A stretch of DNA of 64,000 nt from Pseudopyrenochaeta lycopersici (taxonomy: Eukaryota; Ascomycota; Dothideomycetes; Pleosporales; Pseudopyrenochaetaceae). A model generated the notes under the pieces. The model saw nothing but the letters and a program-made list of their open reading frames with translations, did not search any database and was not told the origin of the DNA. Position numbers and translations under genes: made by a program. Below are positions 911-64,000 of the stretch, one piece after another (position 1 is the first letter of the stretch; the number at the start of each line of letters is the position of its first letter). The stretch lies in NCBI GenBank assembly GCA_003313425.1, contig NHZP01000081.1:100309-164308 (forward strand), given 5' to 3'.

Positions 911-971
911 CACTTGACAACTTTCTAGTGAAAGGAATCATATATAGGCGGAACGCCACACTAGAAAGTTG
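911..971. repeat. Cassette boundary element B1
   Basis: It starts with CACTTGACAACTTTC, followed by the palindrome CTTTCTAGTGAAAG, GGAATCATATATA and a right arm CACTAGAAAGTTG that pairs with the left arm CAACTTTCTAGTG. A mini-hairpin GGCGGAACGCC sits in the loop. A second hairpin (CGAGC against GCTC) lies just to the left. The first 34 bases are the same at almost all 41 sites. Confidence 0.93.
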
Positions 972-1518
972 TCGTGGCTGGGGAGTGACCTCCCCGCACA
1001 CCAAGGAATGCCTGAACGGCATGTACCTCCAGAACCGCGCTAAACTGCGCACAGGGCAACTGACAACTTTTTTTTGCGCCACACCCTGGAGCACTTCGTG
1101 ATTTTTTTTTGGTTTTTTTTCCAAAATACTGCACGCAAATAGTAACTACTACCAACCACGCTTCCCTCTGTGCACGCACCCTAACCTGAAGAACAATACT
1201 ATACTACACACATCAGCTTCACTAACAATAAAATCTAAACCCTACGTACCGGCTATCTCCAGACATTCGCGCACGTCTACGAGGGGCGGAAGCATGACGA
1301 GTAGAGCGTTCTCATCGCAGTCTACCATACAACCACATACGTACGACAAACCATGTTCTACTAATAGTAAGCGACCCTAACTCTCACACAAATGCATCGT
1401 TCTCCTACCAGCGAATAACAATACCGTGCGCTCCCTACCCCCACACGCTCCGCAGTGAATAGTGCACGCTAAAAAACAGCAGGAAAATGCTATACACTCT
1501 GTAGGAACAGGTGGATGG

Positions 1519-2176
1519 CTAACACGAGCTTGCCACCAGCCACAGCACTACAACGCCATAGAATACAAGAACAACACTTGTATACGCACGTCGCCTCCGC
1601 CCAAAAGACGTGACAGGATAGCTGAGCACAAGCAGGATCCAGAGTAGTCCCCATACCTGATAGACCACCGCCAACCATGCTAAAAGCGCCCCGAGGCCAC
1701 CTAACCGGGCGCTACAGCTCCACATAAGACCAACTTGGTCAAACACAGCAAGAAGAACGAACGCGCTGCTTACCACCACCACCGTGACCACGCTCCACGT
1801 GACTGCAAGCCGAACACGGGCAAGACCCTAACCTGTCGTCAGCGGACTCACACGCCGGGTACAAAGCTCCACTGTAACAAACCAGCCGCCTCCGTCGAAG
1901 CCTGCGATAGACACGGCCCGCTGTCCACAGCAGCCACACTAAAAGGCCTCCTTGGGCATAAGCAAGGGCTGCAACCCATAGCAACACCGCATCGTCCATA
2001 CCGTACTTAACCAAGTACCTAGAGCGTCACCAACGCACGTCGAAATCCGACAATACTTCGCCCAACGGCTCCTTCGTAACTGGCACACTGCCAGCTAAGT
2101 AGTGGAACACTCCACAACAACAGGCCCACTAGCCAGGCTGATCCTCAGCAGGGTACCAACCTGTTCTAATGAACAT
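1519..2176 (-). CDS. Probable multi-exon membrane protein, C1 cargo
   Basis: This is not the TKESG family and I do not recognise it. Hydrophobic open stretches lie in successive frames: around 2030-2150 (LVGLLLWSVPLL), 1930-2010 (VLLWVAALAYAQGGLLVWLLW) and 1519-1810 (VVTVVVVSSAFVLLAVF, LLAWLAVVYQVWGLLWILLVL and SVVLVFYGVVVLWLV). Arg-rich loops (RRLRRRR, FGRRRR) separate them, as in polytopic membrane proteins. A TATA run at 2211-2222 and a possible ATG at 2176 give the 5' limit. The changes of frame imply short introns or decay, and I could not fix the exon borders. The copy at 12578-13235 is identical. Confidence 0.5.
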
Positions 2177-2493
2177 CACACTCCGTGAGCGGGGGGAGGG
2201 CCTTCCCCCCCTTATATATATACCTATCCAGCCCTTGCGCGACGCCAAGACCACCTAGTCCCTAGATGGCAGAGTCCTGCACACTCCCTGCTGTCCATAT
2301 TCATAGACCAATTAGATCAAAGATCAAAGAAATCAGGCTCAGCAACGTCATCTGACAACATATCCATGTCATGCTGCGCTTACTAAGTGCATTGCCCCTA
2401 AACTACGAGTAGTTTAACGTTCCACTGCCCACTCCGTAGGCGGCCAAAGCTTACAGGTAAAGCCGTCGTGGTCCCGAGCGCAAGGCTCTCGAC

Positions 2494-2554
2494 CACTTGA
2501 CAACTTTCTAGTGAAAGGAATCATATATAGGCGGTTCGCCACACTAGAAAGTTG
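2494..2554. repeat. Cassette boundary element B2
   Basis: Long right arm with loop hairpin GGCGGTTCGCC. The hairpin to the left has a CGAGC stem. Confidence 0.92.
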
Positions 2555-2862
2555 AGTCGGGGCCCGTGCACCCCCGAGCCACAGCCCCCAGCGTGACTCT
2601 GCATGGCCTCCAGCCACAGGGAAATCGGACTTAGCCAATTTTTTTTTGAAGAGTGATGTTCCATCCCTAGGGTGCCCACACCCTTCCTGACTGACCTCCG
2701 CAACATAACATGTACTATCCATTAGAGTAACACTTTTATTGTTTACACAATTACTGATAAATATAACTGATATACAGTAAAACAACTACACAAAACCAGA
2801 AATAGATTTTAAAAAACTTAATTATGGCCTTCAACGTAGGAAAATTCTTCCTAAGTTCCACA

Positions 2863-3598
2863 TCATCTACTAAACTTCAAGCCACTGCTCTCTGTCTTCG
2901 CAGGTAAAACGCGCACCCACTTATGCACATTCCCTGAAGCTGCTCCACAACTACCGTCTTCTCCACCAGTAACACGGGGACGAAGACACAATACACAACC
3001 TGTACATGCCCTCAAGAAAACACGGTTTTTTAACTCCATGCGAAACCTGGCACTAGAGAGCCAGGTACTACACTCCGTCTCCCCGCAATTACCTACGGCG
3101 ACTGGTATACACATAGCATGCCTAACAAGTAAAGGCAATACACATCTACCCAGATCACGTAGCGCTGCTACAGACAGCTCTGATGCAAACACATCAAATG
3201 TGGGATTCGAAAAACAGCAGGCATGGTACTGTACACGCACTACCAATGCAGGGCTTACAAACCCGCCGTACGCTCCACGCGACACCGGTCGGACTCTATA
3301 CAGGACCTTCCCAGTATTCTGCACCTCACACAGAACACATAGACGAAAATCCCTTAACACTGCTCCACAGTTAGTAAACACCTTACATACAACACCACAT
3401 ACGTGTACCTTTTACGTGCCTTTCCAGCGCCACCAGAACGGTCTCCCTTGGGGAACTGCCACAGCTTCTCTGCATGCAATCCTTGATAACAAAATTCCCT
3501 ACTTCCTGGCTCCGCTGCAGAATCTCAGAGAGGCTTGGCCTGCTCTTACAACCGCAGCCCCCTAAAGCGCCTCCAGCGACAACACAACCACATTCCAT
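2863..3598 (-). CDS. Remote TKESG family member, C2
   Basis: Exon 1 is 3598-3409, the intron 3408-3360 (49 bases, GTACAC donor, TTACTAAC branch, GCAG acceptor, phase 1), and exon 2 3359-2863. This joins into a 228-residue reading frame. The W-W-x-T-K-E-S-G motif is absent, but FASELSVAALRDLGRCVLPLL matches the family helix, the exon 1 end (ALERHVK) matches VRDHV, and a C-x2-C pair remains (TGCVLC). Exon 1 is Cys- and Gly-rich. TATA near 3769-3778. Identical to 13922-14657. Function unknown. Confidence 0.75.
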
Positions 3599-4070
3599 GA
3601 CAAGCAATACTGGTTATACCTGCTCCACAGCTGTATACCACACTGTCCGGCTTATAACAATAGAATTTGTCCTACAAATAGAGGTGAGTCTCACCACAAA
3701 AGAAAAGAGCACAAAGTCCCTTAGAAGCGTGCAACACATCCGTGCTAACAGCAGAGACGCTGTTGTAGTTATATAGATATCCACCTCCTCTCGCCAGGAG
3801 CACCTAGTCCCCAGTTGGCAACATGGTGCCCATTCCATGAATCTATGTTCATAGCCCAATCAGTACTCTGATTGAGAGGGTGGTGGGGGCAGGAATGCCA
3901 CCCACGTGCCCACTACGATCAGATGATCTCGCGCTACGTCCGTGCGCTAGCGGGCTTACTAGTGCTTATGCCCCCAAACTACAAGTAGTTTGACGCGTCC
4001 GCTTCTCGTTCCACTCGTTGGCAAAGCTTACAGTAAAGTGTCAGGGGTCAAGGAGCGCAAGGCTCCTGAC

Positions 4071-4120
4071 CACTTGACAACTTTCTAGTGAAAGGAATCA
4101 TATATAGCACTCGAAAGTTG
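4071..4120. repeat. Cassette boundary element B3
   Basis: Short form: TATATAGCACTC then GAAAGTTG. The hairpin to the left has a GGAGC/GCTCC stem. Confidence 0.92.
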
Positions 4121-4515
4121 TCGGAGGGGGCCCGTGCCCCAACATGACCCATGTCTGCGCTCCCCGCGCCACAGCTAACGTGACCCTGCGTGACTGTCAG
4201 CCACAGGGAAATTGGACTTAGCCAATTTTTCTGCAGATTCGATGTTCCATCTGAAGGGCTCCCACCCTCGATGACTAAGCTCGGCGTCACAAACCCTCTA
4301 TTATTCTACTCCTATAAAATATACTCAGTATACATTGCTCTACCCAACTCCTATTTTTTTCAGTTTGAAAGAAAAGAAAACTAAAAACATAATGCATACA
4401 AGTACTTACTTTTAATTCGTAACCCACTGTTTAGAATAACTCTACAACAGCAACCTTACCAAAAGAACTACACTTAACGTCATAACTGTACTCTCTTGCA
4501 TAACAAGAGTACAGA

Positions 4516-5310
4516 CTACAACCTAGAGCGTCCGCAACTAAGCCAAGGGAGATTAGAAGGCTTTACAACACCGGCTCCGTCACTGAGCCCAGTAAACCAC
4601 CTATTCTCTCCGCCTAAACGTATCCCACTAAACGTATCACAACGAGTAAAACGTGGCTGCCCTTCATACAGCAGTCCACAGTCATCACACTCCATAGTCC
4701 AGGTGCACCCGCATCCAACGCTACTGGAAAATCGCCCTTGATCAAGTGCGTCAAAGAGCGTATCGACCTCCTCCGCCTGCACGAGGTCTCCACGCCGTGT
4801 ATGAAGATGGCACAGCAAACTGCGCGCCAACACATCCAATGTCTCTACTGACAGCTCTGCAAAGACAACCATACTACGTACAGTAAAGTCCCTCAACAAA
4901 CTCACCTTCCAGATGAGAAGTGCCTGCCTAGGAACACTACGTGCACACAGTTCCTTATAAGCGTTTAAACACCCCGTGTGCTGTTCCTCCACACACTGGG
5001 TAGGAAGGCATCCGCTCTCCTTGGTGATCCACCAAGATACAACCCCATTGAACTTCACATCACACGTGACCGACGCGCCGCACTCCGCCAACGCTACTAC
5101 TCTGTCAGTTGGGGGACCTCCCCCTAACTAGAAGAAAGGAAGTATCCACTTACTGTGAATGTGCCTCCGCACCCACTCCATGTGATTGTCAGATGGTGAC
5201 AATACACGAACAGTAGCCCCTTCAACAAGGCTGTCCAGCCAACTTCGTACGTGGACACCCAGTACACCAACGTCCATAACCGCGTTACTGCCTCCAGCGT
5301 GTGACTCCAT
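4516..5310 (-). CDS. TKESG family protein, C3
   Basis: Exon 1 is 5310-5154, the intron 5153-5094 (60 bases, GTAAGT donor, CTGAC branch, GTAGTAG acceptor), and exon 2 5093-4516; 244 residues. SWWITKESG and the putative zinc motif GCGC-x5-C-x2-C (CTWTMECDDC) are present. Exon 1 is of the VRRH type. TATA at 5371-5381. The downstream third (ALDQGRFSSSVGCGC and around) closely matches C28. Three identical copies exist (here, 15575-16369 and 56518-57312), each next to a different right-hand neighbour. Confidence 0.87.
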
Positions 5311-5652
5311 CACAGTATCGTAAAAGAAGTGTTCTATAAAAACACACTCCGTAGCAACAGATTCTCTGTTATTATATATAGGCATATCCATCCTGTTCTT
5401 TGCCAAGACACGCTAGTCCCTAGAGAGCAGCGGACTGCCTAGTCCCTACGTCCATATTCATAGACCAATCAAATGATTGATTGATAAAAAGAGTGGCAAC
5501 CCATGGTCATCTGACTCACATATCCATGTCATGCTTTGCTTACCGGGGTCTCTTGCCCTAAACCCCAGGTGGTTTAACGCTTCGCTGTTCCCTCCAGTCA
5601 CGGCCAGAGCTTAGAGTAAAGCCGTCGTGGTCCCGAGCGCAAGGCTCCTGAC

Positions 5653-5702
5653 CACTTGACAACTTTCTAGTGAAAGGAATCATATATAGCACTCGAAAGT
5701 TG
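5653..5702. repeat. Cassette boundary element B4
   Basis: Short GCACTC form. The left hairpin is a hybrid (CGAGC arm with GCTCCT). The large duplication shared with 11060-16745 ends inside this element. Confidence 0.92.
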
Positions 5703-15129: not shown

Positions 15130-15179
15130 CACTTGACAACTTTCTAGTGAAAGGAATCATATATAGCACTCGAAAGTTG
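15130..15179. repeat. Cassette boundary element B10
   Basis: Same as B3. Confidence 0.92.
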
Positions 15180-24590: not shown

Positions 24591-24641
24591 CACTTGCTCA
24601 ACTTTCTAGTGAAAGGAATCATATATAGCACAAGAAAGTTG
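24591..24641. repeat. Cassette boundary element B16 (left-side variant)
   Basis: It reads CACTTGCTCAAC instead of CACTTGACAAC, which extends the outer stem (CTCAAC with GTTGAG). The variant is shared only with B31, to the right of the copied cassette. Confidence 0.93.
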
Positions 24642-24910
24642 AGTTGTGGCCTGTGCGCGCACAATCTGCGCCACAGCAACCCATGTGCGCTCTCCCGAGC
24701 CACAGCCAACGTGACTGTCAGCCACAGGGAAAATGGACTTACGCATTTTTTTTTGAAGATTTGATGTTCCATCCCAAGGGCGCCCACACCCTTCATGACG
24801 AAGCACCACGCAATAAACAACTACAATGGAATAACGTTCGTTACCAAATGAACAGTTCCACCAAACCTGTACGCAATGTAAACGTAATACAAAAAATGGT
24901 TACATTGTAC

Positions 24911-25759
24911 CTAATTGAACTCCCCCATATCATAATCAAAATCATCTGAATCAAATATATCAGCGTCCCCACCAAGCCGTTCCACCTCTTTTTCCTGCTT
25001 AACAGGAGACCTCGTAACAGGCACAGCCACCCGAGAAGCCAATGCACTGGTAGATCCACCAGCGGGACATCGATCACTGCCTGCGTCATCCAAACGCACA
25101 ACTTCATCCATAGAAAATCTCTTCCTAGCACACTCGCCGCTCCGCATAACACGCTGTGCCCAGGCGAGATAGGCATGATCCTTAAAACAGTTCCCTGTAG
25201 CCTCGCCAAAAAAAATCAACGCTCGCTTTATGCCATCCGTCACAGACTCCTTCGCTGCGTTCTCAATGGCTACGAGTTTACTAGCAGCTGTGGCCTTCCC
25301 ATAGCCCCAATCCTCATGGCGCGCCCCTCCTAAGTGCTCCGCCAGTGTGACTGCTATCTTCGATCGCCAATAGACCGTCGTAGTCGTAGTCGTAGTAGAC
25401 TGCCTAGTCTTAGACACCGGCCCCGGTTCCTCTCCAAGCCGTTCATCTTCGAGAATTTCGTTTGCCCATCCGTCAAAACCAAACACCCTGTTAGCAAGGC
25501 GGATAGCATCCGTTGCTGAAAGATACGACACCGAGCCTCCCCCACCAGGTCGGCTAGACATCAGCGATGGCTCCGGAACACGTGATAACAAATCCTCTAC
25601 GACTTCCTTGCTCCGCAATAGAGAGACAACACCTCCAGTGGGATCGTCCCGACAAAGCTTCGCCCTCTTCCCATTGCTGGTTATCCCTACAGCAGTACCA
25701 GACCCGCCATCCTGGCCCGCGACGCCTGCCGCTCTACTATCGCTGATGCGGTGATCCAT
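24911..25759 (-). CDS. RAD52: RAD52-type single-strand annealing protein, C16 cargo
   Basis: This 282-residue, intron-free frame is a RAD52 homologue. RAD52 proteins form rings that bind single-stranded DNA and anneal complementary strands in recombination. Recognisable segments are YLSATDAIRLANRVFGFDGW (79-98), HEDWGYGKA (148-156) and the strongly conserved stretch at 168-191 (KESVTDGIKRALIFFG, GNC). Residues 123-128 are a Thr run in the region between strands. The tail is short and acidic (268-282, DIFDSDDFDYDMGEF), without a clear RAD51-binding region. The start is ATG 25759; further upstream only the family leader remains, with its usual ATG changed to TTG. TATA at 25889-25895. It fills a standard 1576-base cassette. 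Confidence 0.95.
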   Translation of the reverse strand: MDHRISDSRAAGVAGQDGGSGTAVGITSNGKRAKLCRDDPTGGVVSLLRSKEVVEDLLSRVPEPSLMSSRPGGGGSVSYLSATDAIRLANRVFGFDGWANEILEDERLGEEPGPVSKTRQSTTTTTTTVYWRSKIAVTLAEHLGGARHEDWGYGKATAASKLVAIENAAKESVTDGIKRALIFFGEATGNCFKDHAYLAWAQRVMRSGECARKRFSMDEVVRLDDAGSDRCPAGGSTSALASRVAVPVTRSPVKQEKEVERLGGDADIFDSDDFDYDMGEFN

Positions 25760-26166
25760 TCTTAAACAAGAATCAAATGGGACAATCTCCGTACGCACTT
25801 AATCAGTGCAAGCGATACAATCGCAGCGTAGAAGAAAAGAAACTACACAAAGTAGAACACTTCGTGAAAACAGCTCCACTGTTAGTCTTATATAGGTATC
25901 TACCTCAAGCTACGCCAAGAAAACCTAGTCCCTAGGGAGCACGAGTGTGCCCCGTCCCTGCGTCTACGTTCATAGACCAATCAGAAACCCGATTGATAAA
26001 AAGAGTGGCAAAGAAGAGTCATCTGACCCGCGACGTCCGTGCTCTGCTTTGCTTACAGGGGCTTATGCCTCTAGTCTTATTCAAGACTAACCCTTCGGTA
26101 CTCGTTCCACTCGTTGGCAACGCATACGTGTAAAGTGTCAGGGGTAACCAGCGCAAGGCTGGTGAC

Positions 26167-26227
26167 CACTTGACAACTTTCTAGTGAAAGGAATCATATA
26201 TAGGCAAAACGCCACACTAGAAAGTTG
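26167..26227. repeat. Cassette boundary element B17
   Basis: GGCAAAACGCC form; CCAGC left hairpin. Confidence 0.92.
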
Positions 26228-28078: not shown

Positions 28079-28961
28079 CTACGAATACTCCCCTAACAAC
28101 AGATCCCCACTACGATCATACAACACATCCGTAAGAGCCCCCAGCTCCCAGTCCTCCATCTCTACAAGACCAAGACCACCCTCTCCTTCATCGCTGTTAA
28201 AGGGTTCTGGTGCTAATGACATCCAATCAGCGGAATCGTAATCAGAAGCCACACTGTCAGAGTGGCCAGGAAGTACAAAACTACTAGCATAACAACAAAA
28301 CCCTTCCGGGGGCTCCAGCCAAGCAGGGTCGACATAAGCGCATCCACCACCACCGGATCCAAAACCGGACAGTCCCGGGGTTTCCACAATATCCATAGAG
28401 GCAGCATTCACTGGCCCGCAACCATCGCCGACACTCAACGGCGGGTACTCCCCCGTGAATACAGAGGGATAACATCTCAGTGTATCCGCTCCATACATGA
28501 GGCTTCCCATAACAGAGGGAGCAGACAGGCCTTCTAAATTTCGCACCACGTTATACTCTGCAAGGTCCACCTTGGCACGTAAAAAGCTCTCCACCAAAGC
28601 GACTTCTTCGCTCCCACAAGATCTAAGAAACCCCCACTTCGTGGATATAGTTGACAGACGTTCTAGGAACCACTTCGCGGGCCCTTCGAGCAATTTATCG
28701 ACCTTCTGTACCTTCGGAACCTGCAAAAACGAAGGAGTCAGCATTATCATGCTACACAAGCGCCAAACAGAGACCTACTCTGGAGAGACCCGGATCACTA
28801 CCGGGCTTACGCCTCCGCTTCCCAAGTAAAGCTGTCCCAGCAGCAACGACAGTAGCAGCGTACAACGCCCCACCTTGCAAACAAGACGTAAACATAGAGC
28901 TCCACCGTCCGTCAGCTCCCTGACTCGAAACAAGTGTGCAGACATTCCATCGTGCATCCAT
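28079..28961 (-). CDS. Acidic membrane-anchored protein, C18 cargo
   Basis: Exon 1 is 28961-28779, the intron 28778-28721 (58 bases, GTAGGT donor, GCTGAC branch, pyrimidine tract, GCAG acceptor, phase 0), and exon 2 28720-28079; 274 residues. A hydrophobic stretch around residues 29-48 (GGALYAATVVAAGTALLG) is followed by KRRRK, as in a membrane anchor. The second half is rich in Gly, Pro, Asp and Glu (for example ASDYDSADWMSLAPEP), resembling an acidic interaction or activation region. The intron phase and pyrimidine tract differ from the family, so this cargo has another origin. TATAAATGG lies about 70 bases upstream. Not recognised. Confidence 0.7.
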
Positions 28962-40783: not shown

Positions 40784-41569
40784 CTATACACAACTCAGCC
40801 AGTCTTCGCCTTCCGGCTGAACTTCTCCAACAGCGTCACTGATCCCAGCGAACCAGTCAGACCTTCCGAATGGCCATACCTCATAAAATCTATCCAGCCA
40901 GTGAAACCTCGATGAAATCCGTTGCGCACACGCACAAGGCTGACAGATCCTATCGAGAATACATGCGCAGTCCACCCGCGTACTGTAGTACCCTTCCTCT
41001 AAAACGTAGAACAATCTACGTACCGTAACAGAAGAAGCAACCGCAGCTTGCCCACTAGGCAATGCGATAAGCGGCAGTACCCGCTGCAGAAACACATCTA
41101 GTGTCTCCAGAGAGAGGTCCGCAAATGCAACGCGGCTCTGCACTACACCCCTAACCAAGGTATCCACCTTGAAGACCAGGAGAGACTGCCGGATGGGACC
41201 CTGTGCACAGAGTTCCTTATGAGCGTTTAAACACTCCGCGTGCTTCTGAGAAATACACTGTCGAGGGAGCTGCCCGCTCTCCTTGGTCAACCACGCGGAT
41301 TGTCTCCCCGACAAATCGAAATAGAGAGTAAGAGATACTCCACGCTCCACCAGCTCTACTACTCCGTCAGTTTGGGAATCCCCAACTACTTCCGTGTCTA
41401 GAAGACAAAGACACTGACTGTGCACGTGATCTCTCACGCGGTGCAGTTCCACAGCTGTCTCTACAGACAATGAACAGGAACTCCCTTCCTGTAACGCATC
41501 CACAAGGGATAAGAACGTTCTTGCAGCACTAGGACCCGCCATAGTGCCCTGTCCAGAGCGCGACTCCAT
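40784..41569 (-). CDS. TKESG family protein, C26
   Basis: Exon 1 is 41569-41419, the intron 41418-41356 (63 bases, GTCAGT, CTGAC branch), and exon 2 41355-40784; 240 residues when spliced. The intron is a multiple of three without a stop, so an unspliced message would give 261 residues. The signature is SAWLTKESG; DCACILDRIC-x2-C is intact. TATA near 41637-41643. Confidence 0.87.
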   Translation of the reverse strand: MESRSGQGTMAGPSAARTFLSLVDALQEGSSCSLSVETAVELHRVRDHVHSQCLCLLDTEVVGDSQTDGVVELVERGVSLTLYFDLSGRQSAWLTKESGQLPRQCISQKHAECLNAHKELCAQGPIRQSLLVFKVDTLVRGVVQSRVAFADLSLETLDVFLQRVLPLIALPSGQAAVASSVTVRRLFYVLEEGYYSTRVDCACILDRICQPCACAQRISSRFHWLDRFYEVWPFGRSDWFAGISDAVGEVQPEGEDWLSCV

Positions 41570-43837: not shown

Positions 43838-44701
43838 TTAACTGAGCAACTCGTCTACAGAGTACTTACTAAGTGCACCCTCGAGAGGCGAGATAGAATT
43901 GAGCGCAGTATACGGGCATGTAAGCCAGTCAAGCGCCAACGGTTCTACGATTCCAACCGCATCGCTGTACCCAGAAAACCAGCCATCTGGACCGCATGGG
44001 AATGGCCCACTAAACATGTCCCATCTCGTGAAACGTTGCTGATTAGAACGTAACGACAAACAGGACAAACAATGCTCTCGCAATTTGCACCCGCACCCAA
44101 CGCTACTGGAAAATCGCCCTTGATCAAGTGCGTCAAAGAGCGTATCGACCTCCTCCGCCTGCACGTGATCTCTCCCATGTGTATACACACAGGGCAATAC
44201 GCTTTCGATGAACACCTCCAGTGTTTCCGAGCAAAGACGTGCAAATGCAACCATGCTCCGCATCTGATTGTACTGTCCTACAACGTCTGCTTTCCAAACA
44301 AGAAATGCCATCGGGGCATTATCGGCAGAAGTACAACTTCCAAAATAACACCCACACACATTGGGCGCAGAACACTGGCGAGGAGCCTGCCCGCTCTCCT
44401 TGGTCAGGCATACCTCCAGCGCGCCATCCGGCTGTAGGTGAAACGTAAGAGACACGCGTTGCTTCACCAACACTACCACTCCGTCAGTTGCAGCCCCCAA
44501 CTGTTGAAAGATAGACAGAGAGAAAAGCCTACTGTCCATGTGGCTCCGCAAACAATCTAAATCAGATGCACTCCATGTAACAAATTCTCCTAACTTGCCT
44601 TCTACAAGGCAGTCGATCCCCGACAGAGCAAGCTCGAGCTGTACGCTACCTACACGGCCATCACAATCCGTACGAATATGCCCTCCGGTTGACGACACCA
44701 T
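43838..44701 (-). CDS. TKESG family protein with long tail, C28
   Basis: Exon 1 is 44701-44533 (unusual, LGEFVTWSASDLDCLRSHMD), the intron 44532-44473 (60 bases, in frame and stop-free, GTAGGC donor, CTGAC branch), and exon 2 44472-43838; 267 residues. The signature reads EVCLTKESG. GCGCKLREHC-x2-C is intact. After WLTC the protein runs about 28 residues longer than its relatives (ending SKYSVDELLS). TATA at 44760-44766. A frameshifted copy lies at 59598-60458. Confidence 0.85.
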   Translation of the reverse strand: MVSSTGGHIRTDCDGRVGSVQLELALSGIDCLVEGKLGEFVTWSASDLDCLRSHMDSRLFSLSIFQQLGAATDGVVVLVKQRVSLTFHLQPDGALEVCLTKESGQAPRQCSAPNVCGCYFGSCTSADNAPMAFLVWKADVVGQYNQMRSMVAFARLCSETLEVFIESVLPCVYTHGRDHVQAEEVDTLFDALDQGRFSSSVGCGCKLREHCLSCLSLRSNQQRFTRWDMFSGPFPCGPDGWFSGYSDAVGIVEPLALDWLTCPYTALNSISPLEGALSKYSVDELLS

Positions 44702-45057
44702 CGTCATTTAGAGTGAGCTGGAACACACTCCGTAAATGAGGCAGAGGGCCCCCCCCCCTCTTATACATCCAGCTCTTGAACCATGCCAAGACCACTAGTC
44801 CCTAATGAGCAACCTAATGCACATTCCATGCGTCTATAGCTATAGACCAATCAGACAACTGATTGAGAGAGTAGCGAGGGCAGGGGTGCTCCTCACGTGC
44901 AAAGCAGCGTCATCTGACCCGCGACGTCCGTGCTCTGCTCTGCTTACAGGGGCTCTTGCCTCTAGTCTCCAAGGAGCCTAACGCTTCGCTACTCCCTCCA
45001 GTCGTAGGCAACGCATACGTGTAAAGTGTCTAGGATCAGAAGCGCAAGGCTCCTGAC

Positions 45058-45523: not shown

Positions 45524-46291
45524 CTACGAACAACTCAGCCAGTCTATACCATGTGGCTCCAGTTTTCCAACGGCGCTGCTGATCCCAGTAAACCAATCTT
45601 CCTCTCCAAACGGCCATACGCCGTAGAATCGATCTAGCCGGTGAAACCGTGGCGGACTATCCTCTACAGATACACAAGGCTTACACCTCTTCCCTGGTGT
45701 GCACCCGCAATCCACGCTGGTGCTATACCATCCACTGTCCAACAAGTGCAGCACTTCATCAACAGCAAAAGCCTCTACTAACTGCCCTTCCGGCGTTGTG
45801 ATAAGAGGAATAACGCGCTGTAAAAGCACGTCAAGTGCCTCTAACGAGAGCTGCGCAAACGCAACCAGGCTCCGCATTACCCCGTACCTGAGGATGTCCA
45901 CCTTGAAAACTAGGACAGACTGCCGAGTCCCACCCTCGGCAATAAACCGCCCATACTCGTATAGACAAGACCTGTGTTGTTCCTCCACACACCGTCGAGG
46001 GGGTTTCCCACTCTCTTTGGTTAACCACCCATGTCGCATGCCATGCGGGTCTATGTGGAAAGTGAGAGACACTCCAAGTTCCACTAAAGCTGCTACGCTG
46101 TTACTTAGGGGCCCAACTAATTCAGTCTCTAGACAACCAAAGAGACTCTTACTAGATACGTGATCCCTCACTACGTTAAACTCTGCTTCTGTCCCTACGG
46201 ACAACATGGAAGAGCTCCCCTCCTCTAACCCATCTCTAATAGACGGGGATATATTCGTGCCTAAAGCATCCGCTCCTCGGCGCAATTCCAT
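45524..46291 (-). CDS. TKESG family protein, C29
   Basis: Exon 1 is 46291-46153, the intron 46152-46090 (63 bases, in frame and stop-free, GTAAGA donor, AGTAAC branch), and exon 2 46089-45524; 234 residues. The signature is HGWLTKESG; DCGCTPGKRC-x2-C equals that of C17. TATA at 46363-46371. Confidence 0.86.
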   Translation of the reverse strand: MELRRGADALGTNISPSIRDGLEEGSSSMLSVGTEAEFNVVRDHVSSKSLFGCLETELVGPLSNSVAALVELGVSLTFHIDPHGMRHGWLTKESGKPPRRCVEEQHRSCLYEYGRFIAEGGTRQSVLVFKVDILRYGVMRSLVAFAQLSLEALDVLLQRVIPLITTPEGQLVEAFAVDEVLHLLDSGWYSTSVDCGCTPGKRCKPCVSVEDSPPRFHRLDRFYGVWPFGEEDWFTGISSAVGKLEPHGIDWLSCS

Positions 46292-48223: not shown

Positions 48224-48284
48224 CACTTGCTCAACTTTCTAGTGAAAGGAATCATATATAGGCTGCGCCTCACTAGAAATGTTG
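48224..48284. repeat. Cassette boundary element B31
   Basis: Carries the CTCAAC variant of B16 on the left but the GGCTGCGCC right side, with CTCACTAGAAATGTTG as right arm. Exchange therefore took place to the right of the variant. Confidence 0.94.
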
Positions 48285-48390
48285 ACTGTGGCTGGAGTGT
48301 GACCTCCCGCCCACCCACTTCTGGGTGAGCACCATGTACCCCAAAACGACGCTAAATCGCGCACAGGGCAATTGACAACTTTTTTTTGCG
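48285..48390. other. Second type of structured 3' flank (C31 example)
   Basis: Instead of the common flank, it holds CACCCA (48312) with TGGGTG (48322), GCGCTAAATCGCGC-like pairing near 48349-48362, then GACAACTTTTTTTT at 48372-48387. C1/C8, C32, C34 and C39 share this type, with stem bases that differ but pair. Confidence 0.55.
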
Positions 48391-48574
48391 CCACACTGTG
48401 TCGGACTTAGCCAAATTTATTCGAAAATTTTATGAACCGCATAACGTACCAATGTCGCCGCAGTACATATATTACCAAAGAAATATAAGACTACCAAAAT
48501 ACTTGCCTTGTCTACGTCAAAAACAGCCCGCACTTCACCATCACAGCTATACGCTGAAGGTGTCGCATCATACA

Positions 48575-49398
48575 TTAACACCATAACGCACCATGGACAT
48601 ACCTGCACGATAACCAATCTACCCGCGATGGAAACACCAACCCAACAGCATCGCTAAATCCATTAAACCATCTATGCGATGGGAGCGGAAATGCACCGCC
48701 AAATACATCAAGACGTGCAAACCCACGCTGCCACCGACCTAGCAACAGACACGAAGTGCAACACTTTCCAACTGTGCATCCACAAAGGGCACCACTAGAG
48801 AAATGCCCATTCTCTACAGCGCGGAACACCGCCTCCACTTCATCCGCCCTAGCAGCATCAGCTGCAATCATAGTAACGAGTGGCAGTACCTGCCGCACAA
48901 ACACATTGAGCATATCGACAGACAGCTCCGCAAACGCAACGAAGCTCCGCAGTTGATCGTATTCTCCCACAACATCGACCTTCCAGACGAGACGCGCCCG
49001 AGACGCACCATCCAAATCGCCAGAACCCTCATAGCGATCTAAGCAGCTACAGTCTTTAAGCCTACCACAAGACATGGGAGGCTGCCCGCTCTCCTTGGTG
49101 AACCACCAGACCCGTTCCCCGTTCGCCTGCACGTGACACGTAAGAGAAATATCGTGTTCTACCAACACTACATCAACATCAGTTACTCTGAGTTTCAACC
49201 AACTCCACGGAGAAACACAACAGGGTACCCACTGTGAGAGTATTCTTCAATAATCCCTAACTCGTCTTCAGTCCCTGCAAACGGGTCCCCCTTGCAACCC
49301 TCTTCGAGGGCGTCCATAACAAAAGACGTATACTCCGCTACACTTGGCCGGTCCACAGGCCTCCTAACGATATAAAACTCTCCGGGATGCAACTCCAT
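48575..49398 (-). CDS. TKESG family protein, C31
   Basis: Exon 1 is 49398-49233 (GCKGDPFAGTEDELGIIEEYSHS), the intron 49232-49168 (GTGGGT donor, AGTAAC branch), and exon 2 49167-48575; 252 residues. WWFTKESG and LCGCTVGKCC-x2-C are present. The C-x4-H-x2-C motif is changed to CGRLKDCSC. TATA at 49487-49493. Two further copies follow in C32 and C34. Confidence 0.87.
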
Positions 49399-49786
49399 CG
49401 CCCTGAACAACGCGTTCAAAAGAGAAAAGAGACGAAACTACACATAATAGAGAACACTCCGTGAGCGGGGAGAGAGCCTTCCCCTCTTATATGTCGATGT
49501 CCATGCTGTCTCTGCCAAGAGCACCTAGTCCCTAGCAGGCAATGTGGTGCCCCGTCCCTGCGTCTACGTTCATAGACCAATCAGATAAGAACTCTGATAG
49601 AGTGTGGGGCCAAGGGTGTCTCCCACGTGCAACCCAGCGTCATCTGACTCACACGGTCCGTGCTGCGTGTTGCTTACAGGGGGCAGCGCCTCTAGCCTAC
49701 AAGTAGTCTAACCCTTCGGTACTCGTTCCACTCGCGGGCCCTGCTTAGGGTAAAGCCGTCGTGGTCCCGAGCGCAAGGCTCTCGAC

Positions 49787-49846
49787 CACTTGACAACTTT
49801 CTAGTGAAAGGAATCATATATAGGCTGCGCCTCACTAGAAATGTTG
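49787..49846. repeat. Cassette boundary element B32
   Basis: CGAGC left hairpin; GGCTGCGCC right side. Confidence 0.92.
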
Positions 49847-50136
49847 ACTGTGGCTGGAGTGTGACCTCCCGCCCACCCACTTCTGGGTGAGCACCATGTA
49901 CCCCAAAACGACGCTAAATCGCGCACAGGGCAATTGACAACTTTTTTTTGCGCCACACTGTGTCGGACTTAGCCAAATTTATTCGAAAATTTTATGAACC
50001 GCATAACGTACCAATGTCGCCGCAGTACATATATTACCAAAGAAATATAAGACTACCAAAATACTTGCCTTGTCTACGTCAAAAACAGCCCGCACTTCAC
50101 CATCACAGCTATACGCTGAAGGTGTCGCATCATACA

Positions 50137-50960
50137 TTAACACCATAACGCACCATGGACATACCTGCACGATAACCAATCTACCCGCGATGGAAACACC
50201 AACCCAACAGCATCGCTAAATCCATTAAACCATCTATGCGATGGGAGCGGAAATGCACCGCCAAATACATCAAGACGTGCAAACCCACGCTGCCACCGAC
50301 CTAGCAACAGACACGAAGTGCAACACTTTCCAACTGTGCATCCACAAAGGGCACCACTAGAGAAATGCCCATTCTCTACAGCGCGGAACACCGCCTCCAC
50401 TTCATCCGCCCTAGCAGCATCAGCTGCAATCATAGTAACGAGTGGCAGTACCTGCCGCACAAACACATTGAGCATATCGACAGACAGCTCCGCAAACGCA
50501 ACGAAGCTCCGCAGTTGATCGTATTCTCCCACAACATCGACCTTCCAGACGAGACGCGCCCGAGACGCACCATCCAAATCGCCAGAACCCTCATAGCGAT
50601 CTAAGCAGCTACAGTCTTTAAGCCTACCACAAGACATGGGAGGCTGCCCGCTCTCCTTGGTGAACCACCAGACCCGTTCCCCGTTCGCCTGCACGTGACA
50701 CGTAAGAGAAATATCGTGTTCTACCAACACTACATCAACATCAGTTACTCTGAGTTTCAACCAACTCCACGGAGAAACACAACAGGGTACCCACTGTGAG
50801 AGTATTCTTCAATAATCCCTAACTCGTCTTCAGTCCCTGCAAACGGGTCCCCCTTGCAACCCTCTTCGAGGGCGTCCATAACAAAAGACGTATACTCCGC
50901 TACACTTGGCCGGTCCACAGGCCTCCTAACGATATAAAACTCTCCGGGATGCAACTCCAT
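50137..50960 (-). CDS. TKESG family protein, C32 (copy of C31)
   Basis: Coding part identical to C31, offset 1562. Identity stops about 180 bases upstream of the ATG, at the CCAAT box near 51143, where a different and shorter upstream region begins. Confidence 0.87.
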
Positions 50961-51320
50961 CGCCCTGAACAACGCGTTCAAAAGAGAAAAGAGACGAAAC
51001 TACACATAATAGAGAACACTCCGTGAGCGGGGAGAGAGCCTTCCCCTCTTATATGTCGATGTCCATGCTGTCTCTGCCAAGAGCACCTAGTCCCTAGCAG
51101 GCAATGTGGTGCCCCGTCCCTGCGTCTACGTTCATAGACCAATTAGATCAAAGATCTTGTGAGGCACAGCAACGTCAGATGACTCACGCTCCACGTGATG
51201 CCGTGCTTACCAGGGCTTTTACCTCTAAACTACAAGTAGTTTAACCCTTCGGTATTCGTTCCACTCATAGGCAAAGCTTAGCGTAAAGTGTCAGGGGTCA
51301 AGGAGCGCAAGGCTCCTGAC

Positions 51321-51381
51321 CACTTGACAACTTTCTAGTGAAAGGAATCATATATAGGCTTTTCGCCACACTAGAAAGTTG
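51321..51381. repeat. Cassette boundary element B33
   Basis: GGCTTTTCGCC loop hairpin, seen only here; GGAGC left hairpin. Confidence 0.92.
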
Positions 51382-51775
51382 AGGGAGGGTCTGTGCGCAC
51401 AATCCGCGCCACACCCAGGTGACTCTGCATGGCCTCCAGCCACTGTGAAATCGGACTTAGCCAATTTTTTTTTGAAATGGTGTTCCATTTTAAGGGTTCA
51501 CGCCCTTACTAACCAAGCTCCGCAACAACGAGAAGTCATTGTTTTAATGGCCCTACCATGACCAAATCAGCAACATTTTCTAATACCAAAAATCCTCCGC
51601 ACAAAATAAACTACGCATACTTACAATACCACATGAAAACTACGTATCAAACTACTCTCGCATGCAACCATTAGCATAGAATCTAAAATACAAAGTATTT
51701 CATCCTAACGCACCAATACTATGATCACTCCTTCCGATGTACACTCCACGTACCACAGCGACGGACTACATTGAC

Positions 51776-52579
51776 CTACTCGGGGCATGGCTCACAAGTC
51801 AACCAGTTCCTTCCCGATGGTTGTACTACACCAACAGCGTCACTGACCCCAGTGAACCACTCAAGCTTTCCAAACGGCCATACACCCGAAAATCTATTCA
51901 GCCAAAGAAAACCTTGCCACGAATGCGATCCTAACGCACAAGGCCTACAAATTCCATCTAGCATGCAGCCGCAGCCAGCACCTTTAGGAAAAACCCCTAA
52001 AGAGAATGCATCAAACCATCCCTCGACAGCTAACGCATCTGCAGTCTGACCATCTGACAGCACAAAAAGAGGTAAAATGCGCTGCACAACCACCTCCAGT
52101 GCCTTCGAAGACAGCTGAGCAAACAGAACGTAGCTCCGCACCCCGCCATCGTGAACTCCATCCACCTTGAGGACCAAGAGTGCCTCCTGGGTCCAACCAT
52201 GGCAATCCAACTTCTCATAGTCTCCCAGACAACCTAAATGGACCTCCGTCTCACACTGCCGCGGAGGCTGCCCGCTTTCTTTGGTCACCCACCAAGATTG
52301 TCTCCCCGACAATGGCACATGGACAGTTAGCGACACTCCACGCTCTACAAGCTCTATGACGCTGTCAGTTGGGCATCGGCCAACCTGCCTTCTAAGAGAG
52401 GCAGAAAGAAGACGTATTCACTGACTGTGCACGTGATCCCTCACCACTTGCCGCTCCGCCTCTGTCCCTACAGACACTGGACAGGGCCTCCCTTCCTGTA
52501 GCACATCTACAATAGACGGGAGGCTGTTCTTGGTATCGGCCTCCACCATAATAACCTCTTGCCCAGTACGCGACTCCAT
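51776..52579 (-). CDS. TKESG family protein, C33
   Basis: Exon 1 is 52579-52426, the intron 52425-52354 (GTCAGT, CTGAC branch), and exon 2 52353-51776; 243 residues. SWWVTKESG and GCGCMLDGIC-x2-C are intact. The C-x4-H motif reads CETEVHLGC. TATA at 52631-52638. Its upstream end from about 52670 on is that of C31/C34. Confidence 0.87.
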
Positions 52580-52929
52580 CGCACTATGCTTTAAAAAATT
52601 CACTCCGTAAAAACAGCTCCACTGTTCTTGTTATATACCTCTCTGTCTTGCGCGCCGCCAAGAGAACCTAGTCCCTAGCAGGCAATGTGGTGCCCCGTCC
52701 CTGCGTCTACGTTCATAGACCAATCAGATAAGAACTCTGATAGAGTGTGGGGCCAAGGGTGTCTCCCACGTGCAACCCAGCGTCATCTGACTCACACGGT
52801 CCGTGCTGCGTGTTGCTTACAGGGGGCAGCGCCTCTAGCCTACAAGTAGTCTAACCCTTCGGTACTCGTTCCACTCGCGGGCCCTGCTTAGGGTAAAGCC
52901 GTCGTGGTCCCGAGCGCAAGGCTCTCGAC

Positions 52930-52989
52930 CACTTGACAACTTTCTAGTGAAAGGAATCATATATAGGCTGCGCCTCACTAGAAATGTTG
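52930..52989. repeat. Cassette boundary element B34
   Basis: Same as B32. Confidence 0.92.
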
Positions 52990-53279
52990 ACTGTGGCTGG
53001 AGTGTGACCTCCCGCCCACCCACTTCTGGGTGAGCACCATGTACCCCAAAACGACGCTAAATCGCGCACAGGGCAATTGACAACTTTTTTTTGCGCCACA
53101 CTGTGTCGGACTTAGCCAAATTTATTCGAAAATTTTATGAACCGCATAACGTACCAATGTCGCCGCAGTACATATATTACCAAAGAAATATAAGACTACC
53201 AAAATACTTGCCTTGTCTACGTCAAAAACAGCCCGCACTTCACCATCACAGCTATACGCTGAAGGTGTCGCATCATACA

Positions 53280-54103
53280 TTAACACCATAACGCACCATG
53301 GACATACCTGCACGATAACCAATCTACCCGCGATGGAAACACCAACCCAACAGCATCGCTAAATCCATTAAACCATCTATGCGATGGGAGCGGAAATGCA
53401 CCGCCAAATACATCAAGACGTGCAAACCCACGCTGCCACCGACCTAGCAACAGACACGAAGTGCAACACTTTCCAACTGTGCATCCACAAAGGGCACCAC
53501 TAGAGAAATGCCCATTCTCTACAGCGCGGAACACCGCCTCCACTTCATCCGCCCTAGCAGCATCAGCTGCAATCATAGTAACGAGTGGCAGTACCTGCCG
53601 CACAAACACATTGAGCATATCGACAGACAGCTCCGCAAACGCAACGAAGCTCCGCAGTTGATCGTATTCTCCCACAACATCGACCTTCCAGACGAGACGC
53701 GCCCGAGACGCACCATCCAAATCGCCAGAACCCTCATAGCGATCTAAGCAGCTACAGTCTTTAAGCCTACCACAAGACATGGGAGGCTGCCCGCTCTCCT
53801 TGGTGAACCACCAGACCCGTTCCCCGTTCGCCTGCACGTGACACGTAAGAGAAATATCGTGTTCTACCAACACTACATCAACATCAGTTACTCTGAGTTT
53901 CAACCAACTCCACGGAGAAACACAACAGGGTACCCACTGTGAGAGTATTCTTCAATAATCCCTAACTCGTCTTCAGTCCCTGCAAACGGGTCCCCCTTGC
54001 AACCCTCTTCGAGGGCGTCCATAACAAAAGACGTATACTCCGCTACACTTGGCCGGTCCACAGGCCTCCTAACGATATAAAACTCTCCGGGATGCAACTC
54101 CAT
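53280..54103 (-). CDS. TKESG family protein, C34 (copy of C31)
   Basis: Identical to C31 at an offset of 4705, including promoter and upstream hairpins; exon 1 54103-53938, exon 2 53872-53280. Confidence 0.87.
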
Positions 54104-54491
54104 CGCCCTGAACAACGCGTTCAAAAGAGAAAAGAGACGAAACTACACATAATAGAGAACACTCCGTGAGCGGGGAGAGAGCCTTCCCCTCTTATATGTC
54201 GATGTCCATGCTGTCTCTGCCAAGAGCACCTAGTCCCTAGCAGGCAATGTGGTGCCCCGTCCCTGCGTCTACGTTCATAGACCAATCAGATAAGAACTCT
54301 GATAGAGTGTGGGGCCAAGGGTGTCTCCCACGTGCAACCCAGCGTCATCTGACTCACACGGTCCGTGCTGCGTGTTGCTTACAGGGGGCAGCGCCTCTAG
54401 CCTACAAGTAGTCTAACCCTTCGGTACTCGTTCCACTCGCGGGCCCTGCTTAGGGTAAAGCCGTCGTGGTCCCGAGCGCAAGGCTCTCGAC

Positions 54492-54540
54492 CACTTGACA
54501 ACTTTCTAGTGAAAGGAATCATATATACACAAGAAAGTTG
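54492..54540. repeat. Cassette boundary element B35
   Basis: CGAGC left hairpin with the shortest ACACA right side. Confidence 0.92.
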
Positions 54541-60814: not shown

Positions 60815-60874
60815 CACTTGACAACTTTCTAGTGAAAGGAATCATATATAGGCTGCGCCTCACTAGAAATGTTG
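60815..60874. repeat. Cassette boundary element B39
   Basis: Left flank as B29, right side as B32 (GGCTGCGCC). Confidence 0.93.
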
Positions 60875-61194: not shown

Positions 61195-61912
61195 CTACGT
61201 ACCACGTAATAACACAGTACCACTACAGGAATGCCGCCTACGCAGACAGCCAAACACAACCTCATGTAACACATGATAGAGCTTATCGCGCCAGACAAAG
61301 GTAACCCTCCAGTCCCCACAAAGAACGATATCCTGCGGGACCTCTCTCCCACGGGATTCCCAAAAGAAGGGAATAATCGTCTCTACCAACGCAACGACGA
61401 CTTCGTACATAGCATAGTGATACACACATCACAGCTTTGAGCATGGCTCCAAACATGGCCAAGGAACCCTTCGCAGGACAAGATAGCCTTCGCCTGCTGC
61501 TGGTAAAGAAGGCTTTACACGCAAGAGGCAGTTACAACCCCACATACTGCCACAAAGCAGCGCCCTCTGCGCACCATTCCATATAAGCCGCCACGCTCTC
61601 CATGGCCGAGAAACGTCGCACTCCAGTACCACTCCATGGGACACAAGAACTGCGTGAGGGATCAACAATACCGCAGCTACACTGCACAACTCCGTCTAAC
61701 TCACTGTCCACGTGATCCCTCACAAGAGCGAGCTCCGCCAAAGAGAAGACCTCTGAAGGCATATCGCTCCGCTGTGCCCGCACCCATGCGCTAAACCCTT
61801 TCGTAACAGATGACCTCCAGCCGCGACAAACACGTCGCAGCAACGCAAGCTCAGTGAGGGTCCCTACATGCTCAACAATGCAAAGAGCAACATCCGCGCT
61901 CATAGTTTCCAT
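61195..61912 (-). CDS. F-box protein with TKESG-like second half, C39 cargo
   Basis: Exon 1 (61912-61705) starts with an F-box: ADVALCIVEHVGTLTELALL then RRVCRGWRSSV, residues 6-38, with the usual V-C-x2-W core. F-box proteins normally bind Skp1 and bring targets to an SCF ubiquitin ligase. Exon 1 ends with LAELALVRDHVDS, equal to the end of family exon 1, and has a GTGAGT donor in phase 1 at the homologous place. A 28-base intron (61704-61677) would join it to exon 2 (VVLECDVSRPWRAWRLIW), then one in-frame TGA at 61431-61429 interrupts a frame that goes on to 61195 (MYEVVVALVETIIPFFW). The TGA could mean decay, a missed intron or readthrough. TATA at 62043-62051. Confidence 0.65.
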
Positions 61913-62383
61913 ACTATAACTATTAAGCATACGCTAGTGCAACAGCCCTTTGCATCCACAAAAGACACTCGAGGCAAACCCACCAACGTCCTGCCTCCGT
62001 GAGGGCGTCGGTAATGAAAGAGTCGGCCATGACCGGCCTTACTTATATATACTACTACCTCCATACATGACTACCCGTCACAACCAAGTATCTACCTAGA
62101 ATATTCTTCGCCAAGAAACTAGTCCCTAGTAGGCAACAAAGTGCTCCCTCCCTGTGTCTATCGCCATAGACCAATCAGACGAAGAATCTGAGTGGAGTGG
62201 GGCAAGAGTGCCTCCCACGTGTAACCCAGAGATCAGATGATCTTGCGCTACGTCCGTGCGCCGGTTACTTAAGAGTGCAGCGGCCCTAGCCTACAAGTAG
62301 TCTACCGCTTCGCTACTCCTTCCAGTCGTTGGCCCTGCTTACATGTAAAGTGTCAGGGGTCAAGGAGCACGGGGCTCCTCGAC

Positions 62384-62444
62384 CACTTGACAACTTTCTA
62401 GTGAAAGGAATCATATATAGGCAGAACGCCACACTAGAAAGTTG
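62384..62444. repeat. Cassette boundary element B40
   Basis: GGAGCACGGGGCTCC left hairpin, GGCAGAACGCC right side as B6. Confidence 0.92.
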
Positions 62445-62806
62445 AGTCGGGGCCCGTGCCCAACACGAGCCACATCTCCATGTGACCTGGGATCGCCTCC
62501 AGCCACAACAAAATTGGACTTACGCATTTTTTATTTTTTTTGATGTTCCATCACAGGCCTCACGCCCTTACCAATACAGCTCACACAACAAATCCTTCGT
62601 TTTTCGGATGGCCCTACCATTACAAAATCAGTAACTACACCTGATACTAATAACAATTAATCTATCAACGTACTTCACCACAACGTACTAAATACAGCTA
62701 CTACACAAAAATGTATTTCTCATCATAACAAGAGTACATAATAACTACTACCTTAGTACACACCATACATAGGAATAAAGACCAGAAGAACTTACTGGTA
62801 CCCATC

Positions 62807-63585
62807 TTACCAACAACTTCTGCAACTCAGCCATTGCACACGCAACGGATGTATTTCTCCTACCGCATCGCTAATCCCAGTAAACCAATCCGACTTTAAC
62901 GACCGCTTTATACCGGTAAAACAATTCGCCCAAACAAACCTGGACAAGGACTCATCACATACCAATGCGCAGGGCTCACACCTCCTGTGCAGCGTGCATG
63001 CGCAGTCTACACGTACTATAATACCCAAAGCGCAGTTGATGGAACAATGCCTCCACAACTTCGACATCCGGCCTCTGCCCGACGGCGTTGTGACAAGAGG
63101 TAAAATGCGCTCCACGACCACATCCAGTGCCTCTACCGAAAGCTCCGCAAACACAACCTGGCTCCGCACTTGATCCCTAACCAACGTATCCACCTTGAGG
63201 ACCAGGACCGACTGTACTCTACGCCTCGTTCACAGAACTCCTTGAAGTCATCGAGACACACTGCGTGTTTAGGAGAAACGCATTCGCGAGGAAGCCACCC
63301 GCTCTCTTTTGTTAGCCATACGTCTAAGGCACCATCCGGCTTTAGATGGCAGGTGAAAGAAATCAGTCGCTCCACCAGCCCTGTAACTCCGTAAGTTTGG
63401 GGAAACCCAACCAGAGGAGAGAGAAAACAGTACTTACTAGGAATGTGCCTCCGCACCTGTTCAATGTTTACAGCTGTCCCAGGGAAGGGGGAGCCCCTCT
63501 GACCCGGCCGAAGCTGGTCGACTGACAGTGATTTACTGTCACCTGTACCCTCCGCATTACTGCACTGTCCCAGGAGCGACCCCAT
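62807..63585 (-). pseudogene. Frameshifted TKESG family gene, C40
   Basis: Exon 1 is 63585-63438 (like C5: GQRGSPFPGTAVN), the intron 63437-63381 (GTAAGT), and exon 2 begins at 63380. Compared with C5, one base is missing near 63217, which breaks the frame. A further base near 63080 and two near 63010 are also missing, so about 23 codons in between are read out of frame before DCACTLHRRC-x2-C returns. The signature is DVWLTKESG. Exon 2 starts like C28 (LKPDGALDVWLT) although exon 1 is like C5. TATA at 63668-63675. Confidence 0.7.
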
Positions 63586-63944
63586 CGCGTTATAAAAGAA
63601 GGGAATAAAAGAGAATGTTCAGTCCCTGCAAACATTCACACTCCATGAACGGGGACATCCTCCCCTCTTATATACATCTCTGTCTTGCGCAATGCCAAAA
63701 CACGCTAGTCCCTAGTCGGCAAAGGGCTGCTCACTCCATGACTCTATGTCCATACACCAATCAGAAGCCTGATTGAAAGAAAATGCGGCAACCCAGCGTC
63801 ATCTGACCCGCGACGTCCGTGCTCTGGCTTACTTAAGAGTGCAGTGCCCTAGCCTACAAGTAGTCTAACACTTCGTTGTTCCCTCCAGTCACAGGCTCTG
63901 CTTACAGGTAAAGTGTCCAGGGTAACCAGCGCAAGGCTGGTGAC

Positions 63945-64000
63945 CACTTGACAACTTTCTAGTGAAAGGAATCATATATAGGCTGCGCCACACTAGAAAA
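63945..64000. repeat. Cassette boundary element B41 (cut by window end)
   Basis: CCAGC left hairpin, GGCTGCGCC right side. The right arm continues past the window. Confidence 0.91.

Follow-up and report, generated by a model that had tools for sequence, protein, structure and literature searches.

What would hold dozens of gene cassettes with unlike contents to almost the same length? The question is raised by the final 64 kb of contig NHZP01000081.1 (C81; 164,308 b) of the ascomycete Pseudopyrenochaeta lycopersici (assembly GCA_003313425.1; 62.7 Mb in 188 contigs), a stretch of 64,000 nucleotides referred to here as the window. It holds an array of 40 complete head-to-tail units (938..63971) with their genes on the minus strand, each running from TCATATATA to GTGAAAGGAA. 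We propose, with a probability of roughly three in four, that these cassettes are components of a multipartite, Rep-encoding, rolling-circle single-stranded DNA (ssDNA) element of the geminivirus/genomovirus type, attached to telomeres at the site that Rep would nick.

The 40 units measure 1534–1609 b (mean 1575.85 b), and the junction core CAACTTTCTAGTGAAAGGAATCATATATA or a near copy of it occurs 41 times in the window, at starts from 918 to 63952. The forty cassettes of nearly fixed length described in the original prediction, which was made from the letters of the window, are therefore present, although the limits given for them, 911..63945, lie slightly off the true boundary, which sits in a hairpin loop. 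Genome-wide, the exact 29-b core has 832 matches (500 forward, 332 reverse), and the 17-mer at the unit right end occurs at 894 places, from which we estimate about 1.4 Mb of unit DNA in total. Reversed-pattern controls were all 0, and chance was rejected as an origin of the core and edge matches. Among the first 100 places of each search, those on C4, C5, C10, C18, C23, C54, and C61 cluster towards the ends of their contigs, in runs that are forward on the left and reverse on the right. Genes within the units point towards the telomere side, which for the window array is judged from contigs C5, C54, and C18. All five stretches of C81 that were read, the window included, consist of array. The window contains no tRNA or Rfam features at gathering score, and a tandem-repeat finder whose longest period is 500 returned nothing from it.

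Outside the window, 88 spacings from eight array places (C4, C5, C10, C18, both ends of C23, C50, and C54, among the first 100 of the 894) average 1578.9 b with a standard deviation (SD) of 9.5 b and a range of 1556–1607 b, a few telomere spacers included. Broad spacing elsewhere had been named as the result that would speak against a fixed length, and the spacing is not broad. The 113 distinct complete units average 1578.2 ± 12.0 b (range 1534–1609 b) and the 66 unit types 1578.5 ± 12.0 b. Across 47 types, the position of the stop codon has an SD of 69.5 b, the remaining 3' part an SD of 69.1 b, and the total an SD of 13 b (in the nine of these outside the main cargo family, the stop codon is that of a chosen open reading frame, or ORF). 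Stop position and 3' remainder are almost perfectly anticorrelated (r = −0.98), and total length has a slope on stop position of 0.02, where a freely varying length would give a slope of 1. The same is seen in the 35 main-family types alone (stop position SD 44 b, r = −0.95, slope 0.05).

In a set of 58 types defined at 95% identity, the flanks common to types have median lengths of about 196 and 320 b, and 20 types have middles without blastn similarity to any of the other 57 (E 1e-4, >80 b). These 20 are 1578.8 ± 6.6 b long, as against 1577.3 ± 13.9 b for the 38 family types. The earlier description of the cargo as unrelated thus stands for 20 of the 58 types at the level of blastn and fails for the 38 that match one protein family; at least two of the 20 also have remote links, namely the F-box unit at 60842-62410 and the unit at 29362-30938. 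Because the 3' part compensates for the position of the stop codon, and because types with unlike middles are equally long, a constraint on total unit length as such, as the original prediction had suggested, is strongly supported. The two extremes, 1534 and 1609 b, belong to the same cluster and each share parts with 1562-b units; at 48252..54518, they lie between two identical 1562-b units. A length set by chromatin, through nucleosome phasing, is the least credible of the causes considered here. As a matter of arithmetic only, 1578 b comes close to an integer multiple of a nucleosome repeat (e.g., 9 × 175), but lengths within the window vary between 1534 and 1609 b, and phasing predicts neither a hairpin-loop junction, a telomere register, identical copies, nor a Rep gene.

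The units meet at a fixed junction. At the first of these (918..971), a left arm, CAACTTTCTAGTG (918-930), pairs with a right arm, CACTAGAAAGTTG (959-971), across the unit boundary, GGAA|TCAT, which falls in the hairpin loop between 937 and 938 and is uncertain by 2 b because its AA is shared with CCCTAA. The distance from arm to edge is here 7 b on one side and 21 b on the other; in short variants it is 9–10 b, with imperfect arms. A second junction at 2501..2520 precedes the next boundary (2520/2521), and every later unit is preceded by one like it. The stem-loop is present at all 41 window junctions, with an imperfect right arm in some units. Beside the junction lies an upstream stem, H1 (887..911; GGTCCCGAGC GCAAG GCTCTCGACC), whose changes are compensated between units: at three variable positions, 59 of 78 cells are paired, compared with a mean of 38.6 and a maximum of 51 in 5000 shuffles. 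This test covers 26 distinct sequences, excludes seven anchor-less forms, and uses a shuffle that ignores relatedness between units. About 300 b inside the edge, 37 of the 66 types have a TATA-like box (5.3 in shuffles), and 62 of the 66 have CCAAT or its complement (a count without a control). The gene-sense strand is richer in G than in C throughout coding and non-coding parts and richer in T than in A, the latter weakly at the flanks.

Where arrays end, the edge is in register with the telomere repeat. The chromosome-side joint reads GTGAAAGGAA|CCCTAA and the telomere-side joint CCCTAA|TCATATATA; genome-wide, CCCTAATCATATA occurs 25 times, with a control of 0. All 41 right ends in the genome that are not followed by T are followed by C, the start of CCCTAA. 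Nineteen of these have a paired left edge and bound internal spacers between neighboring units, and all 19 spacers consist of whole 6-b TTAGGG repeats, one to five in each. The other 22 right edges are unpaired; one of them bounds an internal spacer, and 21 are not known to be internal. The seven of these 21 that were read are chromosome-side edges, and all seven continue into at least one telomere repeat and then into other sequence. Unpaired left edges number six, all at contig ends and all with a telomere tract, five of them having been fetched through the pattern match itself. These edges bear on whether the array is an assembly artefact, in which a few circles or concatemers were misjoined into contigs. 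C81 was array in all five stretches read and has no telomere tract at either end, and most within-type differences are indels of a single base, such as errors in long reads produce. However, arrays join other chromosomal sequence on C4, C5, C10, C18, C23, and C54 (five of these six contigs exceed 1 Mb), with telomere repeats at 7/7 edges read, and we consider an artefact, the other refuting outcome that had been named, highly improbable.

One cassette may offer an enzyme for such a junction. It is a 1574-b unit with two overlapping open pieces, situated next to the left-end telomere of contig C99, and it has 11 copies in the genome (on C23, C61, C65, C92, C99, C101, and C166), nine of which have a 411-aa open frame. 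The first piece matches the Pfam families REP_ORF2-G2P (E 8e-4; 2e-4 trimmed) and Gemini_AL1 (0.008; 0.003 trimmed) and the second matches Gemini_AL1_M (E 5.7e-4), in the expected domain order, the pieces having been searched separately. By eye, we take KPHYHAVF to be the HUH motif, GPSRLGKT to be Walker A, and a YxxK and the stretch VTCNADNDPR to be further Rep motifs. Judged by these features of its sequence, the protein is very probably Rep-like and of the geminivirus/genomovirus type.

Another class of element has to be weighed at this point. The cassettes could be non-autonomous Helitron2-like transposons that the RepHel protein of a resident Helitron mobilizes in circular form and that insert at TT in telomere repeats. 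Like Helitron2 elements, the units have asymmetric terminal inverted repeats and hairpins, with a hairpin near one end, TT insertion, and apparent gene capture, and the genome has eight Helitron_like_N matches, two of them with open frames of 1218–1220 aa. The consulted parts of a study of Helitron2 in fungi, including FoHeli of Fusarium oxysporum, describe similar termini, insertion next to T, a joined-end form, and a likely circular intermediate (PMC5148889). Those elements are 5–11 kb and variable in length, encode RepHel, and are not connected with telomeres in these parts of the text (PMC5148889), whereas the Rep-like gene of the units is of the geminivirus type. In addition, a search that allowed up to one mismatch found none of six unit terminal words in the two open-frame Helitron loci (19 kb, left ends not delimited), and termini in common with an autonomous RepHel element were not found in these two of the eight loci. 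We regard a Helitron2-like origin as unlikely. The two open-frame loci (C28:146898 and C46:105562; about 1220 aa) are 93% alike over 8.4 kb, and five of the six other Helitron matches have many TAG/TAA stops, as from repeat-induced point mutation (RIP).

A Rep-encoding element of the geminivirus/genomovirus type suggests how the arrays could be built. The free form of a component would probably be a circle of about 1578 b with one gene, a promoter, and the common flanks, its rolling-circle origin lying in the hairpin loop at the junction and its length held through circle replication or packaging. On the G strand, a unit reads CCTTTCACTAG...TATATATGATT, with a putative nick site, at the first junction on the minus strand, of TATGATT^CC. 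Rep would open the loop after TATGATT and stay on the 5' end. If this end were joined to the ...GGGTT at the 3' end of a telomere, exactly the chromosome-side joint would result; joining to the ...GATT of an earlier unit would give the unit-unit joint; and extension of ...GATT by telomerase would give the telomere-side joint. Repeated rounds would build arrays, and cutting and joining by Rep would thereby explain the orientation, the register, the whole-repeat spacers, and the complete ends.

Known viruses share much of this organization. One gene per component, common non-coding regions, and near-equal lengths are features of multipartite circular Rep-encoding ssDNA (CRESS-DNA) viruses and are found in the units. 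Nanoviridae have one gene per circle, a common stem-loop, genes on one strand, and an F-box protein on one component; as far as the consulted description of the family goes, their components are about equal in size and are encapsidated one by one. They differ from the units in component size, about 1 kb, and they have 6–8 components, infect plants, and are not known to be integrated. A closer likeness comes from another ascomycete, in which Botrytis cinerea ssDNA virus 1 (BcssDV1) is a tetrasegmented genomovirus with one-gene segments of 1690, 1690, 1669, and 1707 nt (PMC10731770). According to the consulted parts of that report, it resembles the units in having one main gene per segment, near-equal lengths with unlike genes, common regions (about 260 and 38 nt), a Rep gene with a putative intron, and a stem-loop origin cut at TACTCTT^CA (PMC10731770). 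This site has the same layout as TATGATT^CC: both begin with TA and are cut after TT. It differs in having four segments rather than 66 types, a different origin sequence, and free particles, and these parts of the report describe no telomere arrays (PMC10731770). By analogy, BcssDV1 and the nanoviruses would account for the equal unit length. Among the causes offered in the original prediction, a circle or replication unit is thus favored, by the fixed hairpin-loop edge, the Rep-like cassette, and this four-circle fungal virus (PMC10731770).

Other systems resemble the arrays in part. Insertion in telomere repeats in one orientation, a hallmark of telomeric retrotransposons, is seen in the units, with the exception of a main-family match at C101:24600-25337 whose orientation is opposite to the rest of its array. 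TRAS/SART, HeT-A, and the terminons of bdelloids are likewise telomere-repeat or chromosome-end elements with uniform orientation and head-to-tail arrays; these elements and MoTeR are retroelements and are often 5'-truncated. In contrast, nearly all unit ends are complete, and no reverse transcriptase was found among the Pfam matches of the cassette proteins examined. A gypsy-type element on C5 adjoins an array and does not lie within units. Kinetoplast minicircles are similar to the units in their many components, uniform size, and differing content, and bracovirus proviral segments in their many components and tandem proviral copies, with circles that vary in size; neither is known to have a Rep-type hairpin-loop junction or a telomere register. 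MoTeR of Magnaporthe is also telomere-targeted, according to the part of that study consulted (PMC7367193).

Copies of a unit type are near-identical. Between same-type pairs there are no substitutions in 62 of 67 cases and 2 to 17 in the other five, most differences being the one-base indels mentioned above. RIP-like sequence occurs elsewhere in the genome and the window as a whole is not RIP-like, which fits recent formation. The order of units looks random: among 35 neighbor pairs, one is a repeat, compared with 1.7 expected at random (162 places and 23 types, from scored main-family matches and RAD52). The 66 types seen, sampled at 113 places, point to a pool of about 87 by Chao1, an estimate that assumes a random sample.

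Could the host have made these arrays without any virus? A host gene family might be shuffled at chromosome ends by recombination and through excised telomeric circles, in the manner of alternative lengthening of telomeres, with RAD52-like and F-box genes as host cargo. Telomere arrays recombine in many organisms, the host possesses its own RAD52, and exact multi-unit blocks are repeated: the three-unit block at 938..5679 recurs exactly at 11997-16738, plus part of the unit preceding it, such that units were copied together. Host recombination leaves the constant length with unlike cargo, the telomere-register junction, and the Rep-like gene all unexplained, and the neighbor order is that expected at random in the 35 pairs. 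We think it improbable as the whole account, slightly more so than a Helitron2-like origin.

Several observations weigh against a Rep-encoding ssDNA element joined at its nick site. Exact block copies exist (938-5679 = 11997-16738), and ordinary recombination between arrays therefore also acts. An internal spacer at C65:246640 has a variant left edge, and of three telomere-capped ends met without selecting for a junction, two (C5 and C54) are cut inside a unit and one (C18) joins at an edge. All Pfam scores of the Rep-like protein are under the curated cut-offs. Matches of its first piece to Rep chains in the PDB are weak (E 0.03–1.4), with unrelated proteins scoring equally or better, and the helicase (second) piece matched no Rep chain there. 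A search of the whole genome with PF00799 gave no match at E 1, and its controls were equally silent. Pfam recognized no capsid gene among the cassette proteins submitted, which cover part of the 66 types; about 20 further types are estimated to be unseen, and capsids of small viruses diverge fast. Scans of viral_contigs found no relative. The Walker A pattern by itself matched three long contigs in that set.

The cargo genes fall into one main family and a diverse remainder. The main family, which we name after the stretch WLTKESG, is represented in the window by proteins of 255 aa in a single open frame (45524..46291), 261 aa (40784..41569), and 289 aa (43838..44707), all on the minus strand. 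By iterated profile it takes in the 38 of 58 types given above, some of them weakly; the profile included some out-of-frame translations, such that the weak members are uncertain. In the genome, 149 matches were scored of 621 candidates. Across 14 members, which are 34–74% identical to the first, C, W, G, and some further positions never vary. Many types have frame changes near the start that look like a short intron, and several members are broken. Purifying selection is evident: 13 window ORFs form 78 pairs, all with pN below pS, and the median omega is 0.33 (70 finite).

A single-sequence search found no homologues of the main family, and a 14-row profile found five distant proteins (P0001–P0005), one of them from Zopfia rhizophila. 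In P0002 and P0005, the stretch ahead of the shared domain reads by eye as F-box-like, with Pfam silent on both. Similar arrays or free circles may exist in other fungi. The contigs encoding P0001–P0005 measure 1182, 45,796, 1458, up to 4951, and 522,141 b, respectively.

The remaining cargo includes a RAD52-like gene, an F-box-like gene, and orphans. The RAD52 unit (24619..26193, minus strand, 1575 b) encodes a 282-aa protein (24911..25759, minus strand) that matches Pfam Rad52_Rad22 at E 7e-28, and the genome has 13 equal-scoring stop-free copies of this gene. A homology search with the RAD52 cassette gave one outside match; host RAD52 and the cassette protein are 42–46% identical, in two pieces. 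The unit at 60842-62410 encodes a 132-aa F-box-like protein (61532..61930, minus strand; Pfam F-box-like at E 7e-4, which is under the cut-off) that, judged by eye, has the stretch VRDHV in common with the main family. Several units carry orphan ORFs, such as a 223-aa ORF (28079..28750, minus strand) in the unit at 27767-29361 with no Pfam match at E 1, and a few types have no long ORF. A second orphan family is represented by a 210-aa protein (29781..30413, minus strand) in the unit at 29362-30938, which is 20–28% identical to proteins of two other unit types.

It is tempting to go further and see a virus-like ssDNA genome that is still live, consists of about 90 size-gated one-gene circles, and is archived in host telomeres, where Rep would join and telomerase would recap; it would fill the last tens to hundreds of kb of as many as 20 or so chromosome ends, with the RAD52-like and F-box-like genes as fixed components. 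We hold this fuller picture tentatively, at a little short of even odds. Among the papers listed by searches of the open-licence PubMed Central literature (subscription papers and preprints lie outside this scope), none concerns telomeric ssDNA-virus arrays, in agreement with the earlier remark that no such eukaryotic array had been described. The parts resemble multisegmented genomoviruses; the number of components and the joining to telomeres do not. If the units are read as virus pieces, this would be an exceptionally finely divided virus-like genome, chained head to tail into telomeres. Nanoviruses have up to eight components. The multisegmented fungal ssDNA virus, in the consulted account, has four segments (PMC10731770), compared with at least 66, and perhaps 90, here. 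A system of at least 66 components would challenge ideas on the cohesion of multipartite genomes, for which chromosomal storage is a suggested answer, and it would show a DNA element joining in TTAGGG register with a telomerase-extendable end, an unusual form of chromosome-end formation. As a natural series of unlike genes in equal total length, the units would also make size fixation in minicircle-type genomes directly testable.

Finally, several sites beside the arrays have features of their own. On C5, a gypsy-type retroelement (L016:3839-7540) abuts the array with a single CCCTAA between them, which suggests that a broken end was healed by telomere repeats before the units arrived. Immediately inward of two arrays (L012 from 1640, on C23, and L017 below 3680), the sequence is rich in C and T over a long tract, with CCCTAA scattered through it, and resembles a decayed telomere. 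One of the listed places, C60:240697, is an internal decayed relic (stretch C60:238500-241500) in which a solitary right end is followed by a decayed telomere-like tract, with no blastn match to the collected units beyond it; this right end perhaps remains from an old array or from a related element. About 5 kb inside of the array on C23 lies an ORF with a helicase C-terminal domain (L012:6768-8000), a position comparable to that of the telomere-linked helicases of fungi. Elsewhere on this contig, the stretch C23:500000-509999 is very AT-rich (GC 0.33, TA/AT 1.66) and RIP-like, unlike the array.

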